From assembly GCA_018711655.1 (NCBI GenBank), contig DVIA01000055.1:1-64000 (forward strand): a DNA stretch of 64,000 nucleotides. The letters run 5' to 3'. How positions within the stretch are numbered: the stretch's first letter is position 1; every line of letters begins with the position of its first letter. A model generated the notes under the pieces. The model saw only the letters and a program-made list of their open reading frames with translations, was not told where the DNA came from and did no database searches. The position numbers and the translations under genes were made by a program. This stretch comes from Candidatus Pullichristensenella avicola. GTDB taxonomy: Bacteria; Bacillota; Clostridia; Christensenellales; Aristaeellaceae. Below, one piece after another: positions 8,712-17,978 of the stretch.

Positions 8712-9290
8712 TTAGACGTCCGGGCGGTCAAAAAGTTCCCGCTCCTGCAAAAGAATTTCCCGAAGCCGCGCGCGCCCCCGGCTGATTCGGGACTTGACGG
8801 TGCCGACGTTGGCGCCGAGAATATCGGCGATCTCGTCGTATGCGCAGCCCTGTATATCGCGCAACACCACGGCCGAGCGCATGTCCTCGGGCAGTTGGGC
8901 GATGGCCCGCTCCAGCGCGCGGCGCTGTTCAGCGCGCATGGCGTGATGCTCAGGCGTATCCATATCGTCGGTGGGCGCCCAGCCCGCCTCGAGCTTCTCG
9001 TCCAGCGAAGAGACCTTGCGGCGCTTGCTGCGGCGCAATTCGTCCAGACAGGTGTTCATCGTAATGCGATACACCCATGTGGAAAAGGACGACTGCCCCT
9101 TGAACCCGGAAATGGAACGGAAAATGCGCAGCATAGCCTCCTGAAGGCAGTCCTGCGCGTCCTCATGGTGCCCGCACATGCGCAGCGCCACCGCGTACAT
9201 GCGGCTTTCCTGCGCGGCCATGAGTTGGGAAAACGCCTGACCGTCGCCCTTTGCGGCGCGCTCGATCAAGCCTCTTTCGTCCGTCTGCAC
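8712..9290 (-). CDS. ECF RNA polymerase sigma factor (RpoE/SigW-like)
   Basis: The 192-residue protein has sigma region 2 (MYAVALRMCGHHEDAQDCLQ, then FSTWVYRITMNTCLDELRR) and region 4 (LPEDMRSAVVLRDIQG and DEIADILGANVGTVKSRISR). The GTG ending at 9290 is preferred because GGAGGT lies 6 bp upstream; a GTG ending at 9308 would sit in front of that site. The gene leads an operon with its cognate anti-sigma factor and a SIMPL protein. Confidence 0.93.
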   Translation of the reverse strand: MQTDERGLIERAAKGDGQAFSQLMAAQESRMYAVALRMCGHHEDAQDCLQEAMLRIFRSISGFKGQSSFSTWVYRITMNTCLDELRRSKRRKVSSLDEKLEAGWAPTDDMDTPEHHAMRAEQRRALERAIAQLPEDMRSAVVLRDIQGCAYDEIADILGANVGTVKSRISRGRARLREILLQERELFDRPDV

Positions 9291-9354
9291 GCAGGCACCT
9301 CCTTCCACGTCTTTCAGGCCTATTATACACGAAAATCGAATTTTTGCCTAGGGG

Positions 9355-9383
9355 TTGATTTTTGCGCGCCGGTGGTGTATAAT
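9355..9383 (+). promoter_or_regulatory. Sigma-A promoter of the tRNA-Leu/tRNA-Ser unit
   Basis: TTGATT (9355-9360), a 17-bp spacer and TATAAT (9378-9383) lie about 90 bp upstream of tRNA-Leu. The divergent minus strand also carries a TATAAT (complement of 9321-9326) that may serve the sigma operon. Confidence 0.8.
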
Positions 9384-9471
9384 GGGAACCGCGATTGCGC
9401 CGGGCGCACGGCGGTTTCCGGCCGCGCCCCGAAACGCCTTTTGCCTGCGCCGCGTAAGGCGCAAAGCATGT

Positions 9472-9557
9472 GCCGGTGTGATGGAATGGCAGACGTGACG
9501 GACTCAAAATCCGTTGGTGGCGACACCGTGTGGGTTCAAGTCCCACCACCGGCACCA
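9472..9557 (+). tRNA. tRNA-Leu (anticodon CAA)
   Basis: The 7-bp acceptor stem GCCGGTG/CACCGGC closes, the anticodon loop reads CTCAAAA with anticodon CAA, a long class II variable arm is present, and the T-arm carries GGTTCAAGTCC. The 3' CCA is encoded. Confidence 0.97.
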
Positions 9558-9610
9558 GTTTTCGGCCCGGAAGGCCGGCCTCTGCGGTTGAATCCGCGTT
9601 GAATGCCCGT

Positions 9611-9699
9611 GGAAGCGTATCGAAGTGGTCGTAACGAGCCGCACTCGAAATGCGGTTGTCCGAGAGGGCACGTGGGTTCGAATCCCACCGCTTCCGCCA
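9611..9699 (+). tRNA. tRNA-Ser (anticodon CGA)
   Basis: The acceptor stem GGAAGCG/CGCTTCC closes, the anticodon loop is CTCGAAA with anticodon CGA, and the class II variable arm and GGTTCGAATCC T-arm are present. The 3' CCA is encoded. It lies 53 bp after tRNA-Leu. Confidence 0.97.
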
Positions 9700-9703
9700 G
9701 ACT

Positions 9704-9740
9704 GAGCCCGGACGCAGTTTGCGTTCCGGGCTCGGCTTTT
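9704..9740 (+). terminator. Intrinsic terminator of the tRNA unit
   Basis: GAGCCCGGA and TCCGGGCTC arms enclose a further GCG-containing bulge and are followed by GGCTTTT, starting 5 bp after the tRNA-Ser CCA. Confidence 0.85.
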
Positions 9741-10134
9741 CCTTTGCCTCGCCGCTCGCGTTTATCGCGGGCGTCTTTTGGTCTGTGCTTTTTACACGAC
9801 ATCAGCGGCGAACAAGTCGCGCGCCGCAGGTTTTCCATTTCAGGCGCTTTTCATGGGTGTGTCAACGCTTCGGGGTGCAATTGACAGTTCGGGTTCTGCG
9901 GCGTGCTTTGCCTTTCATGCACGTCCGCGGCGGAAAATCTCCATCAGCGCTCCAAGAAAAGAACCCTGCTTTTGATCCGGCGCGCATCAAAACTATGCCC
10001 TTTACCGTTCTGTTCAAACCCCTCGGAATCCAGACAGCGATTCATTTCCGTCCCGGCCGGCGCCGGGCAGAGAGGCGCACAGAGGCCGTTTTGTCGCGGC
10101 GGAAGGCCGAAGCGCGGCGGACGATCGCTTCACC
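9741..10134. other. Gene-free stretch between the tRNA unit and the accessory region
   Basis: I see no gene, RNA or clear repeat here. The open frames lack ribosome sites and recognisable domains. It may mark the left edge of the accessory zone. Confidence 0.4.
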
Positions 10135-10791
10135 TCAAACGCCTAGCCGATGGCGAATGTCGTTGAGCCATTCGCCATTATACTTGAAATACCTAGGCCC
10201 AGCAATGGAATACCGCTTGCCCGTCAGGAGTTTTGCAAGGGCGGTCAGCGACATGGTTTCTCCGTTATATTCCACGCTTCTATCGCCAACGACTCTCGCC
10301 GTTATGCCAGGGTTATCGCAAAACTCTATTGTTGCCCCAACGGGAATTCCACACTTCTCGAAGGAAAAATTGGCGGCCCGCTCACTGCTGTCTGTATCGA
10401 TCTGCTGCGCCTCCCGTTCCGCGCGCCGCTCCTCCGCGCTGGGCGCGATTTTCCTGAGTTTGTCCGAACAGCCGTGGATTTGCGCAATGGCCTCCAGAAT
10501 GGAGTACGCGTCCTCCGGGGACATGGCGTAAAACTCGCGCGATCGCCGCTTGCCGTTAAAGCGCTCAACCGATCGCAAATTGGGATTGAGCTTGTCGATA
10601 ATGGAATGGATTTTTACGTCTGAAAGCCGCGAAGATACCTCGTATGTCGCGTACACTCGAAAGGCGTACGGAATGCACTCGCTCCGATTCAACTGTTTCA
10701 GACGCGTGTCGATGTCATCCGCATAGCCGATTTTTACATAATCCGGAAATGACGGATTCATGAGAATGTAGATGGTTCCATTTTTCTCCAC
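10135..10791 (-). CDS. GIY-YIG (T5orf172/MUG113-like) domain protein
   Basis: The 218-residue protein starts with a GIY-YIG nuclease core of the T5orf172 type: GTIYILMNPSFPDYVKIGYA followed by RLKQLNRSECIPYAFRVYA. A charged helical linker (about residues 120-150) leads to a C-terminal domain with IPVGATIEF and SLTALAKLLTGKRYSIAGP, resembling the DUF4357/RAMA-type modules that accompany restriction-linked nucleases. The GTG ending at 10791 follows a GGGGGG run and begins just before the conserved core; a TTG at 10980 would add unconserved sequence. Function is unproven; a phage or mobile-element origin is likely. Confidence 0.75.
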   Translation of the reverse strand: MEKNGTIYILMNPSFPDYVKIGYADDIDTRLKQLNRSECIPYAFRVYATYEVSSRLSDVKIHSIIDKLNPNLRSVERFNGKRRSREFYAMSPEDAYSILEAIAQIHGCSDKLRKIAPSAEERRAEREAQQIDTDSSERAANFSFEKCGIPVGATIEFCDNPGITARVVGDRSVEYNGETMSLTALAKLLTGKRYSIAGPRYFKYNGEWLNDIRHRLGV

Positions 10792-10976
10792 AGGCTTGCC
10801 CCCCAATAAAGGAAAACGATTCAGGCAACCCGACCGCTGCGGCGGCGCAGCTCGGTCGCTATTGCGCTTTGAAGGTTCTTCCTGGATTATACGACAAAAG
10901 CTTTTTTCATGCAATAGCCGGAACGCACGGAACCTCACGGGGCTTCCAGCATGAAATTCGCATTTTCGTAGATTTG

Positions 10977-11899
10977 TCAAACATATTGGACAGCGAATTT
11001 CGAGGGAGAAAGCCAGTTCAGCGGCCTCATGGAGCGTTGGTGGTGGTGGATGGCGAGCCGCTTTGTAAAGTCGTCCAGGGAATTAACGCTGCGGCAGGAA
11101 CAGAAACGTTTCTGGTCCCCCGGTGGCTTCGCTCCGCTTTGCCGTTGTGGCGCGGGGTATATGGACGGATGCGTTTGTGGCGGACACCCATCTCAGCCAT
11201 CTCAGCGGCTGTGTTCCCGAATAAGGAAGGGCATCTCTGTCTGCCGGTGAGGAAGCGGTTGGTGAACTCCGGGCCATTGTCGGTCTGGACGCACGCCACC
11301 TCGATACCCCGACGGGCGTAACCCTTGAACATTTTTTTGAGGAAATCAGCGGAAGAGTAGCTGCCTCGCCCGGAACAGGCGGCCAGGAAGCGCAGGCGGG
11401 CGAACTCGTCTATGGCGGTATACTGAAACAGGCGCATCTCCGGATTGGCGATGCAGCGGCGGAGCGCCACTTTCACATCCACCTGGATACGCTGGCCGTG
11501 ACAGGTCATTTGCCGGCAGGGTCTGGGCTTGCAGGCCGGCTTTTTCTCCGCCTGCAGGAACAGGCCCAGCTTCCTCATGACCCGGAACAGGCTCTCCGGG
11601 CGGCGGGTGTAGCCCCGCTGCCGCAGACGACGTCACAATTCCACCATACCAAGGCGAGGGTTTCTGCGGCGCATGTCCCGGTTCAGTTTCATCTCTGCCT
11701 TTGTGTGTTGGTCGGGGCGGTGCGGCCGTCGAGACTGGCAGGCCAGGGACGCCACGGTCCCATCCCAGCGGGATTTTCGAAAGCAACTATGGAACCGGCT
11801 CCTGTTGTATTTCCGGCTAGCCTTGGCCGCTCCATATTTCTGCGCATACTTCATCAGGGATTGCCCGTATGCCATCTCCTGTGTTATACTCTTTCCCAT
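10977..11899 (-). pseudogene. Decayed IS481-like DDE transposase
   Basis: From the ATG ending at 11899 the frame reads MGKSITQEMAYGQSLMKYA, then the helix-turn-helix part and the RVMRKLGLFLQAEKKPACK region. The integrase core shows YTAIDEFARLRFLAA, VQTDNGPEFTNRF and RIRPYTPRHNGKAERSH, and the C-terminal RPLNWLSPSKFAVQYV ends at 10977. The gene is dead: a TGA at 11633-11635 replaces the usual Trp before RRLRQRGYTR, and a single-base deletion near 11120 shifts the frame after ERSHR. I could not define terminal inverted repeats. Confidence 0.9.
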
Positions 11900-12043
11900 G
11901 AAGGATACGCCCTCTCTCATACAGTTGTTGTCTGCAACTCCAACGATAACCGATAAGGCTTTATCCTTCATCCCTTTTTGTTCATCTGTCCAATATGTAT
12001 TGTACCCCTGTAAAGACGCGCTCAGGAAATTTGAATTTTCCCC

Positions 12044-12072
12044 TTGACAATGCTCGCGAGATGCGGTATAAT
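12044..12072 (+). promoter_or_regulatory. Sigma-A promoter upstream of the tRNA-Val locus
   Basis: TTGACA (12044-12049), a 17-bp spacer and TATAAT (12067-12072) form a consensus promoter. The next downstream features are the tRNA fragment at about 12250 and tRNA-Val at 12316; the 180 bp between hold no gene I can recognise. Confidence 0.8.
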
Positions 12073-12249
12073 AAACTTCGTTCCGATTCCTGCAATGTAT
12101 TTGCAAGGGCGGACGGGCAGGTTTGGCGCTTTGCTTTGTTGGCAGAGAGGACATGCCGGCCGATGCATATAACGCTTGATCCGATGCGAAGCGGGCCGTG
12201 AATGTGACGCGGCGGACAAAACGCTAAAATCGGTTCACATAGATCCTTG

Positions 12250-12448: not shown

Positions 12449-12963
12449 ATGCTGCGTATTGAACTGCGCACCTCCGCCAGTCCGGCCTTTGCGCCTGCTA
12501 TGACGCTCTACGCCACCAGCTTCCCGGAGCATGAACAACGTCTGGAGCCGTCCCAGCCCCGTATCATTTTGGCCTGCTTTATGGCGGGGAGCATTTTGCC
12601 GGCCTGATCCTGTATTGGGACGCGGGCGAATATTTCTACGTCGGGTATCTCTGCATTGTCCCGGAAAGGCGAGGTCAAGGTTTGGGTACAGAGGCAATCG
12701 AACTGCTCGCGGGAGAGGACAAGCCTGTTATCCTCGAAATCGACCAGCCGGTGGATGAAATATCCCGCCGCCGTCAGGCATTCTATAAACGCGCGGGCTT
12801 TGCCACCAACTCGCACGCGCACGTTCATCCGCTCTACTGTCCTGAAAACCCGGGCCACGCCCTCGTGGTCATGGCCCGTCCCCACCCGCTTACGAAGGGC
12901 GAATACGCCGCCTTCGCCGCGTATCTTTCCGATGTTGTGATGAAGGACTGCCCGAAACCTTGA
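12449..12963 (+). pseudogene. GNAT acetyltransferase, frameshifted
   Basis: The N-terminal part opens MLRIELRTSASPAFAPAM behind a GGAGGG site and runs to a stop at 12607. The rest of a GNAT fold continues in another frame from about 12560: HFGLLYGGEHFAGLILYW, the acetyl-CoA-binding RRGQGLGTEA, and a C-terminus ending VVMKDCPKP at 12963. The switch lies around 12555-12562, where a short deletion seems to have joined the frames. Both halves are otherwise well conserved, so inactivation looks recent. Confidence 0.8.
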
Positions 12964-12978
12964 AAGGAAGTGGCCCCT

Positions 12979-14529
12979 GTGCGGATCAACGCATATCAAT
13001 GGCAGCTCTATCTTCGAGCAGGTGGGCAGGAAACGGTAGAACGCTTTGCATTTGGTCTACATGGCGATGGAAAACAAATGCGGGAACTGGTGATTTCCTT
13101 GTTCAAAGCATACTGCCCCGATACTTTCCTGGTGCAGACGATCGAGGAGAGCATCACTGCATTTGCAGAAGCGCATGCAAACGCGGAGGACGCATTTGTG
13201 GAGAAAGATGTATCCGGCGCGTATGCATATGAAGAAGAGGCTGCGGCGCTGTGGGAGGAGATCGCGGCGGAATATGCGGGCGCCTGTCAAAGACAGGCTA
13301 CAGACAGGCGGATATTTGAGCTTTTTGCCAATGACATCGTGTACATCAGCATGATGTTGACGGCACAGGATCCAGATGCATTCATTCCGTATTTTTTCCC
13401 CTGCTGCTATCATGTACTGACAGCCCTTGCGGACGTATTTGACATACAGCTGCCGCCGACGCCAGGGCGAAGGGACTATGTCGGCAGATTTCGTCATTAT
13501 TTTGAGCTTTGCCGTGTGCTGCAAGCAGTGAGAAAGGAAATGATGTGGAGCAGCGAGGAGTTTTGTGCATTCCTCTATGATTACGGGCCAAAATCGGCAG
13601 GCGGGCTGAACTGGCTGTGGCAGGAACTGCCGCCGCCGCATGCTGCCTATGTTATCGGGGCGAGCCCGGAGGATCCTGCTTTTCGAAAGACGGATGCAGA
13701 CGTTGGAGAAAAGGAGGTGTTTTGCTGGCAGGGGAGCCCCGACACGCAGCCGGGCGACATCATCCTCTTGTACCATTGGGCGCCCGTAAGCAGGTTTGCT
13801 TCTGTTTGGCGTGCAAGCGCGCCGGGATTCGTCGATCCGTTTTTTGACCAGTATCGCTGCGTATACATTGGGCATCCCATATCTATCCCCGGCCCGAGCT
13901 TTCGGACGCTCAGGGAAGATGCGCTGTTTTGCAATCACTTTCTGACCAAAACACGCATGCTGCGCATGGATGGCCAGGAGATAACGCCCAGCGAATATGC
14001 GCGCATACTGATGTTGATCCATCAAGCCGGGGGCGATGTCTCGCGCTTGCCCGTGTTGGAGAACTGTTTTGAGAGCAGCAGCTCACCGGAGCAGATCGAA
14101 AGGGAGCGGGATGTGGAACTTTGCCTGCTGGAACCGCTTCTGGAACGCTTGGGCTGGAGCCGGGAGCAATACGTCCGTCAAATGCCGCTGCGCATGGGAA
14201 GAAGCTTTACCGTCTATCCAGACTATGTCATATTGCCAGAGTTTACACCGGGACATGAAAGGGGGCAGTGGGTCGTCGAGGCCAAAAAGAGCATTCCGAC
14301 CGCTAAGCAGCTGGAGACGGACTGTGCGCAGGCATCTTCCTATGCTCTGCGCCTGAACGCACATGGATTTATGCTCGTCGCACAGGAAGGCGTATGGACA
14401 GCGACAAAAGAGGATGATTTTGAGAATATGGCACATTATAGTTGGGAAGACCTGCGAGAAGACGATATTTTTGCAAAGCTATACGCGACGGCGGGCAACC
14501 GAAGAAGGCGGAAAAATGCGCGCCGGTAA
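12979..14529 (+). CDS. Predicted modified-DNA reader/PD-(D/E)XK nuclease
   Basis: This intact 516-residue protein has three parts. An N-terminal helical region (about 1-205) has no motif I recognise. A middle region (about 210-330) with AAYVIGASPEDPAFRK, QPGDIILLYHWAP and VWRASAPGFVDPFFDQYRC resembles PUA/EVE-type base-reader folds. A C-terminal region (about 380-505) looks like the N-terminal nuclease of type I restriction R subunits: LLEPLLERLGW, then VYPDYVILPEF and WVVEAKKSIPTAKQ, matching the D...ExK active site. The GTG at 12979 sits 8 bp after AAAGGAAG. Base composition is lower in GC than the core genes. The nuclease fold is visible from motifs; modification-dependent restriction is inference. 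Confidence 0.7.
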   Translation: MRINAYQWQLYLRAGGQETVERFAFGLHGDGKQMRELVISLFKAYCPDTFLVQTIEESITAFAEAHANAEDAFVEKDVSGAYAYEEEAAALWEEIAAEYAGACQRQATDRRIFELFANDIVYISMMLTAQDPDAFIPYFFPCCYHVLTALADVFDIQLPPTPGRRDYVGRFRHYFELCRVLQAVRKEMMWSSEEFCAFLYDYGPKSAGGLNWLWQELPPPHAAYVIGASPEDPAFRKTDADVGEKEVFCWQGSPDTQPGDIILLYHWAPVSRFASVWRASAPGFVDPFFDQYRCVYIGHPISIPGPSFRTLREDALFCNHFLTKTRMLRMDGQEITPSEYARILMLIHQAGGDVSRLPVLENCFESSSSPEQIERERDVELCLLEPLLERLGWSREQYVRQMPLRMGRSFTVYPDYVILPEFTPGHERGQWVVEAKKSIPTAKQLETDCAQASSYALRLNAHGFMLVAQEGVWTATKEDDFENMAHYSWEDLREDDIFAKLYATAGNRRRRKNARR

Positions 14530-14579: not shown

Positions 14580-14786
14580 ATGGCCAAATTCATTCCCCGC
14601 GAAAAGCTGGGCAAGAAAGCTCGAAAGGCGCTGGACTCACATCGGCGTGTCAGATGGTTATTTTCGCCAACCACCCGCAAAGTCGAAAGTAAGAAAATTT
14701 ATAATCGCAATCGCAAGCCTCATACCTGGATTATCATAACCGGTATGGGGCTTGCATCATTTTTAGATTTGCCACGAGACCTTTAG
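14580..14786 (+). CDS. Small conserved basic protein of unknown function
   Basis: The 68-residue product begins MAKFIPREKLGKKARKALD and continues RVRWLFSPTTRKVESKKIYN. I have seen similar short basic proteins in gut Clostridia, but they have no assigned role. AAAGGAAG lies 9 bp upstream of the ATG. The last third differs from what I would expect and overlaps a terminator hairpin, so the 3' end may be altered. Confidence 0.6.
   Translation: MAKFIPREKLGKKARKALDSHRRVRWLFSPTTRKVESKKIYNRNRKPHTWIIITGMGLASFLDLPRDL
14713..14764 (+). terminator. Intrinsic terminator overlapping the small gene's 3' end
   Basis: GCAAGCCTCATACC and GGTATGGGGCTTGC form a 14-bp stem with one wobble, followed by ATCATTTTT. 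The hairpin is inside the preceding reading frame, 22 bp before its stop. Confidence 0.75.
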
Positions 14787-14992
14787 CATATACTGCCGGG
14801 CGGTTAAAACAATAACCTACATATCTGTCAGCCTAGGAAAGAATCATTTCAAGTTTGCGATTGTTCTTTTTGCCAGAACTTTTATCTGTTCGCTTCGCGA
14901 ACCCCCCATTTTCACTTCGTGAATTTGGATCCTGCTTAGCGATTTATTGTGATATACTTATTGTGAAATGTGTTATGGGAGGAGGGGTGCGG

Positions 14993-17103: not shown

Positions 17104-17416
17104 ATGCGCAAGGATGCAAAACTGTCCCAGAAAATCGTCGGCGTGATCTTGTTTATCTCGCTGGTACTTTCCATCATTTATTCCCTTGCTCACTTTATAC
17201 AGGCGCCGGAAACAGCGCCTGAAGGGGAGATCGGCCTCAAAGTAAAGAGCGACTATCTGCTGATGCTCACCCAATGCGTGCTCGGCGTCGTTGTTATGCT
17301 CCTGCCATCGGCGGTCAACCGCAAATGGAACGTGCCGATTCCGCGAAACATCTATATCGCTTACTATATTTTCCTCTTCTGCGCCATTTTTCTGGGCGAG
17401 GTATTCGACTTTTACT
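17104..17416 (+). pseudogene. Integral membrane protein, truncated by an IS fragment
   Basis: The product begins MRKDAKLSQKIVGVILFIS and has three hydrophobic segments (about residues 10-30, 58-75, 83-103). It breaks off after GEVFDFYY, a motif normally followed by further membrane segments in a widespread uncharacterised family. At that point the sequence becomes an IS256-type transposase fragment. Confidence 0.7.
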
Positions 17417-17978
17417 ACTTAACGGTCTGAAGAACCGGGGCGTAGAGGACATATTCATCGCCTGCACGGACAATTTGACGGGATTTGACGCGGCCATTCA
17501 CGCCATCTTCCCTCAGACCGGGATTCAGAACTGCATCCTCCACCCGCTTCGCAATTCCAGCAGGGATGTGTCCTATAAGGATATAAAAGCCCTCATGGCT
17601 GATCTGAAGGCGGTCCATGCCGCCATAGACGAGCAGGCAGCTTTGAATGCCCTGGACACCTTTGAAGAGCGCTGGGACAGGAAATACCCGAGAATCTCTC
17701 AGTCCTGGCGGGCGAACTGGGCCAATCTGGGCACATATTTCAAGTACCCTCAGGAGGTGCGCAGGCTGATCTACACCACCAACGCCATAGAGGGCTTCAA
17801 CCGCCAGCTGCGCAAGGTGACCAAGGTCAAATCGGTGTTTCCCACGGACGACAGCCTGTTGAAAATGCTGTATCTGGCGATGATGGACATCACGAAAAAG
17901 TGGACGGGACGGCGGCAGGACTGGAGCCTGATCCACGCGCAGCTGTCCATCTATTTTGCCGGACGCATGCCCGAATAA
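17417..17978 (+). pseudogene. IS256-family (mutator-type) transposase, C-terminal fragment
   Basis: The sequence reads LKNRGVEDIFIACTDNLTGF, IHAIFPQTGIQNCILHPLRN, RLIYTTNAIEGFNRQLRK and YLAMMDITKKWTGRRQDW, diagnostic of the IS256 catalytic C-terminus. The N-terminal half, including the first catalytic Asp, is absent, so this is a remnant. It is joined to the preceding membrane-protein gene without an intergenic gap. Confidence 0.9.

Follow-up and report, generated by a model that had tools for sequence, protein, structure and literature searches.

Does an intact gene lying among pseudogenes in the genome of Candidatus Pullichristensenella avicola encode a complete restriction system against modified DNA in a single protein? 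This had been proposed in a sequence-only reading of the locus from three parts recognised in one chain: an unassigned helical domain, a PUA/EVE-like reader-type domain and a nuclease core resembling that of type I R subunits. In the window, i.e., the whole stretch of 64,000 nucleotides that was analysed, the gene forms a complete frame of 516 codons plus stop at 12979-14529 (+), according to the open reading frame and its translation, and the motifs quoted in that reading (QPGDIILLYHWAP, FVDPFFDQYRC, PDYV and WVVEAKK) were all recovered. Two GTG start candidates, at 12970 and 12979, share the stop ending at 14529; the one at 12979 was favored because its Shine-Dalgarno sequence is better placed, the stretch AAGGAAG at 12964-12970 (+), read directly from the sequence 8 nt 5' of this GTG, being the probable ribosome-binding site.

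The genome (2.38 Mb, assembled in 76 contigs) contains a single copy of the nuclease gene. The orthologue in a genome of the same genus (L002) is 73% identical at the protein level and adjoins the same GNAT gene. Comparison of the two genes by the NG86 method gave dN 0.173, dS 1.31 and a dN/dS of about 0.13; with dS near saturation and dN at 0.17, the protein is evidently under purifying selection. The GNAT acetyltransferase gene in the window (12449-12963, +) is frameshifted into two pieces (12449-12568 and 12562-12960), both 73-76% identical to the intact gene in L002, and its stop lies 15 bp 5' of the nuclease gene. Transposase remnants flank the latter at 11027-12154 (-) and 17274-17978 (+), IS3-like and IS256-like by eye. 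The description of an intact gene among pseudogenes is therefore fair: its own frame is complete, the GNAT gene preceding it is broken across two frames and transposase remnants are present on both sides. A small basic ORF, MAKFIPREKLGKKARKALDSHRRVRWLFSPTTRKVESKKIYNRN, is located at 14580-14790 (+), and a similar one occupies the same position downstream of the L002 orthologue.

Predicted domains of the protein

The AlphaFold2 model of the window protein, built on a 28-sequence alignment, reached a pLDDT of 86.0 and a pTM of 0.72, and was laid out as a helical region (residues 1-212), a mainly beta region (about 216-350) and a PD-(D/E)XK core (370-505). A fold search against BFVD produced weak matches, led by a phage protein that carries the N-terminal domain of type I R (E=3.6e-3). 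The N-terminal all-helical domain (12979-13614, +) found no match on its own in the PDB fold search. Residues of about 118-183, however, matched the domain located N-terminal to EVE in AAA_5-EVE (McrB-type) proteins (75% by hhalign, with E=2.5e-5, against at most 0.5% for the other pairings), a likeness which is supportive rather than independent, since the comparison was picked after the resemblance had been seen by eye. The helical character noticed earlier is present in the model, and the profile comparison suggests that the helical-EVE arrangement of the family resembles that of McrB-type proteins.

The middle domain (about residues 216-350; 13624-14028, +) is the candidate reader of modified bases, an EVE domain of the PUA superfamily. 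The first three PDB structures in the Foldseek ranking were Rpa0253 (2gbs, E=3.7e-4), Atu2648 (1zce, 5.2e-4) and PH1033 (2hd9), all of which we take to be EVE proteins, followed by Cas4 (4r5q), ASCH and, lower down, YTH. The profile of this region matched a set of stand-alone EVE proteins (hhalign 94.5%, E=8e-8), with 30 column-shuffled controls giving 1.0% or less and the N-terminal and nuclease regions 0.2% or less against the same set. The assignment as a PUA/EVE reader-type domain was thereby borne out.

Within the barrel, W250 (13726-13728, +), G259-D260, Y265, P287 and F288 are invariant in the family alignment of 28 sequences, and Y296 is present in 27 of them; W277 and Y296 are not kept in the Deinococcus members, which counts against modified-base reading. 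By analogy with VcaM4I (PMC7897488), residues W250, Y265, P287, F288 and Y296 are candidates for lining a base pocket. An unlikely alternative is a defence nuclease in which the EVE-like domain no longer reads bases, and which would respond to a different signal from the phage (unmodified sequence, DNA ends or a phage protein) or act by abortive infection in a Shedu-like manner. The divergence of the EVE part speaks for it: Pfam EVE stayed below the cut-off and touched a single one of the 19 relatives scanned (L006), at the same place and weakly (E=0.042). Against it stand the EVE proteins at the top of the PDB fold matches and the invariant aromatics with the GD motif, which suggest a retained pocket.

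The C-terminal domain (about residues 370-505; 14086-14493, +) was assigned to PD-(D/E)XK nucleases of the HsdR-N type by Pfam matches in the relatives and by the model. Among 19 relatives, 13 matched HSDR_N, at best with E=2.5e-5, and 8 matched HSDR_N_2. The model places the acidic E376 (14104-14106, +) where the first helix of the core begins, followed by strands with D415 of the PD motif (14221-14223, +), a strand with the ExK motif E434-A435-K436 (14278-14286, +), a helix (442-458) with the QxxxY motif Q451-A-S-S-Y455 (14329-14343, +) and further strands, i.e., the alpha-beta-alpha-beta order expected for PD-(D/E)XK enzymes. Conservation was complete (28/28) for E376, D415, E434, K436 and Y455, and 27/28 for Q451. 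The QxxxY motif is typical of type I/RecB-like nucleases. The likeness to a type I R-subunit nuclease claimed from the motifs is thus backed by HSDR_N in the relatives, by the secondary structure of the model and by catalytic residues that are invariant in the alignment; a comparison of the nuclease profile with one real HSDR_N neighbour was weak (hhalign 6.5%) and is not counted in its favor. From these motifs and the model, the domain is predicted to be catalytic. One relative also matched SduA weakly (E=0.014), in line with the nuclease acting without base reading, but HSDR_N matched better than SduA, which argues against a Shedu manner of action. In another genome of the same phylum (L059, 691-1896, +), a PD-(D/E)XK-like stretch precedes EVE, i.e., in the opposite domain order.

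The same evidence bears on a very improbable alternative, in which the protein would be an RNA- or tRNA-targeting nuclease or a toxin, its barrel binding modified RNA, with RNA cleavage or host damage serving lysogen maintenance or an abortive system. The EVE/PUA/ASCH superfamily binds both DNA and RNA (PMC7641849), ASCH is among the fold matches, and most copies of the family gene have no linked cognate methylase. The HsdR-N/QxxxY nuclease type, on the other hand, has established members which act on DNA, and no consistent antitoxin partner accompanies the gene, the ORF downstream of it in prophages being variable, small and lipoprotein-like. Such an ORF was observed just 3' of the family gene in L020, L021, L024, L026, L027, L029, L030, L034 and L035.

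Distribution of the family and its genomic neighbours

Searches with the window protein alone gave no match in Pfam or PADLOC, nothing meaningful in NCBIfam or among PDB sequences and no matching phage record in INPHARED, and the PDB profile search was empty. PHROG 37753, listed with function unknown, matched the window protein over its full length (residues 2-502, E=2.7e-79) as well as all 19 family members scanned. About 28 full-length relatives at 28-36% identity were found in Clostridia including Lachnospiraceae, in Desulfovibrio, on two Deinococcus plasmids and in 16 IMG/VR (pro)phage contigs; short fragment matches in L004 and L007 were left out as doubtful. The window gene belongs to a conserved family and is a real gene. 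Its presence across genomes is patchy: in the search of 100 related genomes any match was seen in four, including the window genome and one short fragment, and in the phylum sample in 2 of 398, one being again the window genome and the other match short and marginal.

The (pro)phage copies have a recurrent position. On 10 of the 16 contigs the family gene is located directly 3' of an S24 repressor gene, co-directionally and with a gap of 38 bp or less, the repressors being mostly unrelated to one another. The CI/LexA-type S24 repressor was confirmed by Pfam in nine of the ten, and L030, the tenth, shares its repressor with L029; the contigs are partly non-independent, L020, L021 and L024 being close to each other, as are L029 and L030. 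On an eleventh contig (L034) the family gene lies 203 bp behind the gene of an HTH protein, and in L022 an HTH gene is located just 3' of it. Among L026-L029 the proteins of the family share 81-84% identity, while their repressors show either no similarity or about 30%. Such a fixed place behind a changing repressor should give expression in the lysogen. A free-standing HSDR_N nuclease gene lies directly 3' of the family gene in the prophage L023 (11253-12332, +).

Several copies lie close to anti-phage genes. In Deinococcus sp. QL22 (L006) the family gene is located inside a BREX locus (brxB, brxC, an N6-methylase, a DarT-like gene, pglZ and brxL), where it forms, together with two GTPase genes, a cassette on the strand opposite to the BREX locus. 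The GTPase genes (9277-11026, +; one LeoA-like according to PADLOC) stand directly behind the family gene, possibly sharing the cassette with it. In D. proteolyticus a type IIG enzyme is encoded at a distance of about 2.4 kb from the family gene, the copy in L019 is divergent from an adjoining HEC-05/GmrSD-like gene, and in L016 an HNH restriction-like gene and a NERD/PglW-like gene are found nearby. In the window, a GIY-YIG (T5orf172) protein is encoded 2 kb from the nuclease gene (given as 10135-10896 or 10135-10980, -; Pfam T5orf172 2.1e-12), and it matches the PADLOC defence candidate PDC-S57 (E=3.1e-100), which makes it a second candidate defence gene at this locus. Most clostridial copies stand alone among housekeeping genes, a setting that fits a one-gene system but also counts against the restriction reading.

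The defence role, originally suggested by domain order, gained support from this neighbour survey, with BREX, type IIG, HEC-05/GmrSD-like genes and S24 repressors beside the relatives and PDC-S57 in the window. With prophage repressors and anti-phage clusters as neighbours, and with a reader and a nuclease domain in one chain, the family is probably a one-protein phage defence. The same context would also suit a defence nuclease that reads no base. It is also relevant to the improbable case of a non-defence phage or host gene of DNA metabolism, active in repair, replication or lysogeny control: PD-(D/E)XK enzymes are common in phage genomes and several clostridial copies adjoin housekeeping genes, but the patchy presence, the BREX and RM clusters, the mobile elements and the EVE fusion are better suited to defence.

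Target base and proposed mode of action

If the family recognised any 5mC, its carriers should lack 5mC methylases. This was examined by counting PF00145 matches in 13 carrier genomes and in 100 relatives of the window genome. A match was present in 8 of 13 carriers (7 over the cut-off) and in 37 of 100 relatives; a generic 5mC target is thus disfavored, since the carriers, 7-8 of which encode such a methylase, show no depletion. The lack of depletion also speaks for a defence nuclease whose EVE-like domain reads no base. No 5mC methylase was found in the window genome itself, which is uninformative because 63 of the 100 relatives are also without one. A generic m6A reader is unlikely, because the copy embedded in BREX has an N6-methylase in the same locus. 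The most likely target would be a hypermodified phage base or a context-restricted modification rather than general 5mC, and phages with chemically modified DNA are perhaps the ones attacked.

Taken together, we lean toward a single-protein, type IV-like restriction nuclease, triggered by modified bases and carried as cargo by temperate phages and defence islands, as the probable identity of the window protein. Dependence on modification would follow by analogy with characterised EVE enzymes. The EVE-like barrel would scan incoming DNA, flip out a modified base and hold it, and the held base would license the C-terminal HsdR-N-type nuclease to cut nearby DNA with the help of a metal, the cutting probably being preceded by dimerisation. 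The N-terminal helical domain, common to EVE-McrB proteins, may provide oligomerisation or extra DNA contacts. The prophage copy behind a CI/LexA-type repressor would likely be co-expressed with it in lysogens and exclude incoming phages. We infer both an anti-phage effect and an oligomeric state for the family. More tentatively, and with some doubt, the family may be a lysogen-expressed, repressor-linked and phage-borne enzyme of superinfection exclusion, which is modification-dependent and recognises a hypermodified phage base distinct from 5mC and m6A.

Should the restriction reading be true, PHROG 37753, now listed with function unknown, would acquire a function, and the type IV-like enzymes would gain a one-gene member that has no name in the current Pfam, PADLOC and NCBIfam models. 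Temperate phages would then be seen to retain enzymes of this kind in the operon of the repressor despite the change of the repressor. On the more tentative reading of superinfection exclusion, a prophage would shield its host from phages already past ordinary restriction, and the enzyme would have moved between prophages and BREX and RM islands. If the specificity is for a hypermodified base, the enzyme could serve as a useful reagent and as a test of whether prophages police phages with modified DNA.

Comparison with known systems

The sequence-only reading did not recognise a named system, and none of the current Pfam, PADLOC and NCBIfam models names the family, nor was a paper doing so found in the open-access literature. 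The protein is nevertheless less isolated than this implied, since Bell, Wolf and Koonin had already predicted in 2020 that EVE-PD(D/E)XK fusions act as type IV restriction enzymes (PMC7641849). As in that class, the window family combines an EVE specificity domain and a nuclease in one chain, with an EVE/PUA domain, a PD-(D/E)XK core with kept catalytic residues and a defence-associated context; the class description in the available part of the paper, on which this comparison is based, is given without a helical domain, the HsdR-N subtype or a repressor-linked prophage setting. New are the definition of the family, the helical-EVE-HsdR-N order and the repeated occurrence of the gene in repressor operons of temperate phages.

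EVE-McrB proteins have a profile-similar helical domain N-terminal to EVE, as in the window family, but McrB is an AAA+ GTPase cutting via the separate McrC, whereas the window family has a fused nuclease and no NTPase. Membership in McrBC was rejected, as the window protein contains no AAA domain and only the helical-EVE part is common. The N-terminal nuclease of HsdR (PF04313, PF13588) has the same PD...ExK...QxxxY core; in the window family, by contrast, the nuclease is C-terminal, with no helicase, HsdM or HsdS. Membership in HsdR was likewise rejected: the 516 aa contain no helicase and no PF02384 match was found in the whole window genome. Shedu systems contain a PD-(D/E)XK nuclease fused to varied N-terminal domains. 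Shedu (SduA, DUF4263) is similar in that a single PD-(D/E)XK protein, equipped with an additional sensor at the N-terminus, makes up the defence, but membership was rejected with SduA matching 1 of 19 members (E=0.014) and not the window protein.

The pairing of BREX with a type IV enzyme is known from BrxU/GmrSD, encoded beside BREX (PMC8565348); one copy of the window family is also inside a BREX locus, which fits complementary protection, although BrxU has a DUF262/DUF1524 fold and no sequence relation to the family. HHPV4I is a virus-encoded SRA-wH-HNH MDRE thought to exclude other viruses (PMC10101028), and resembles the window family as a virus-borne nuclease whose modification dependence would, in the latter, be shared; it differs in its archaeal virus origin, SRA/HNH domains and m6A target. 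A similar plan is seen in VcaM4I, an EVE-HNH enzyme which flips 5mC/5hmC into a pocket of aromatic residues and cleaves by means of its fused nuclease (PMC7897488). Both unite an EVE base-flipping sensor and a nuclease in one NTP-independent protein, as predicted for the window family, but in VcaM4I the EVE is N-terminal, the HNH C-terminal and the 5mC/5hmC specificity experimentally established, whereas the window family has PD-(D/E)XK instead of HNH and an added helical domain. The plan of VcaM4I with an HsdR-N nuclease in its place is the simplest reading of the architecture of the family.
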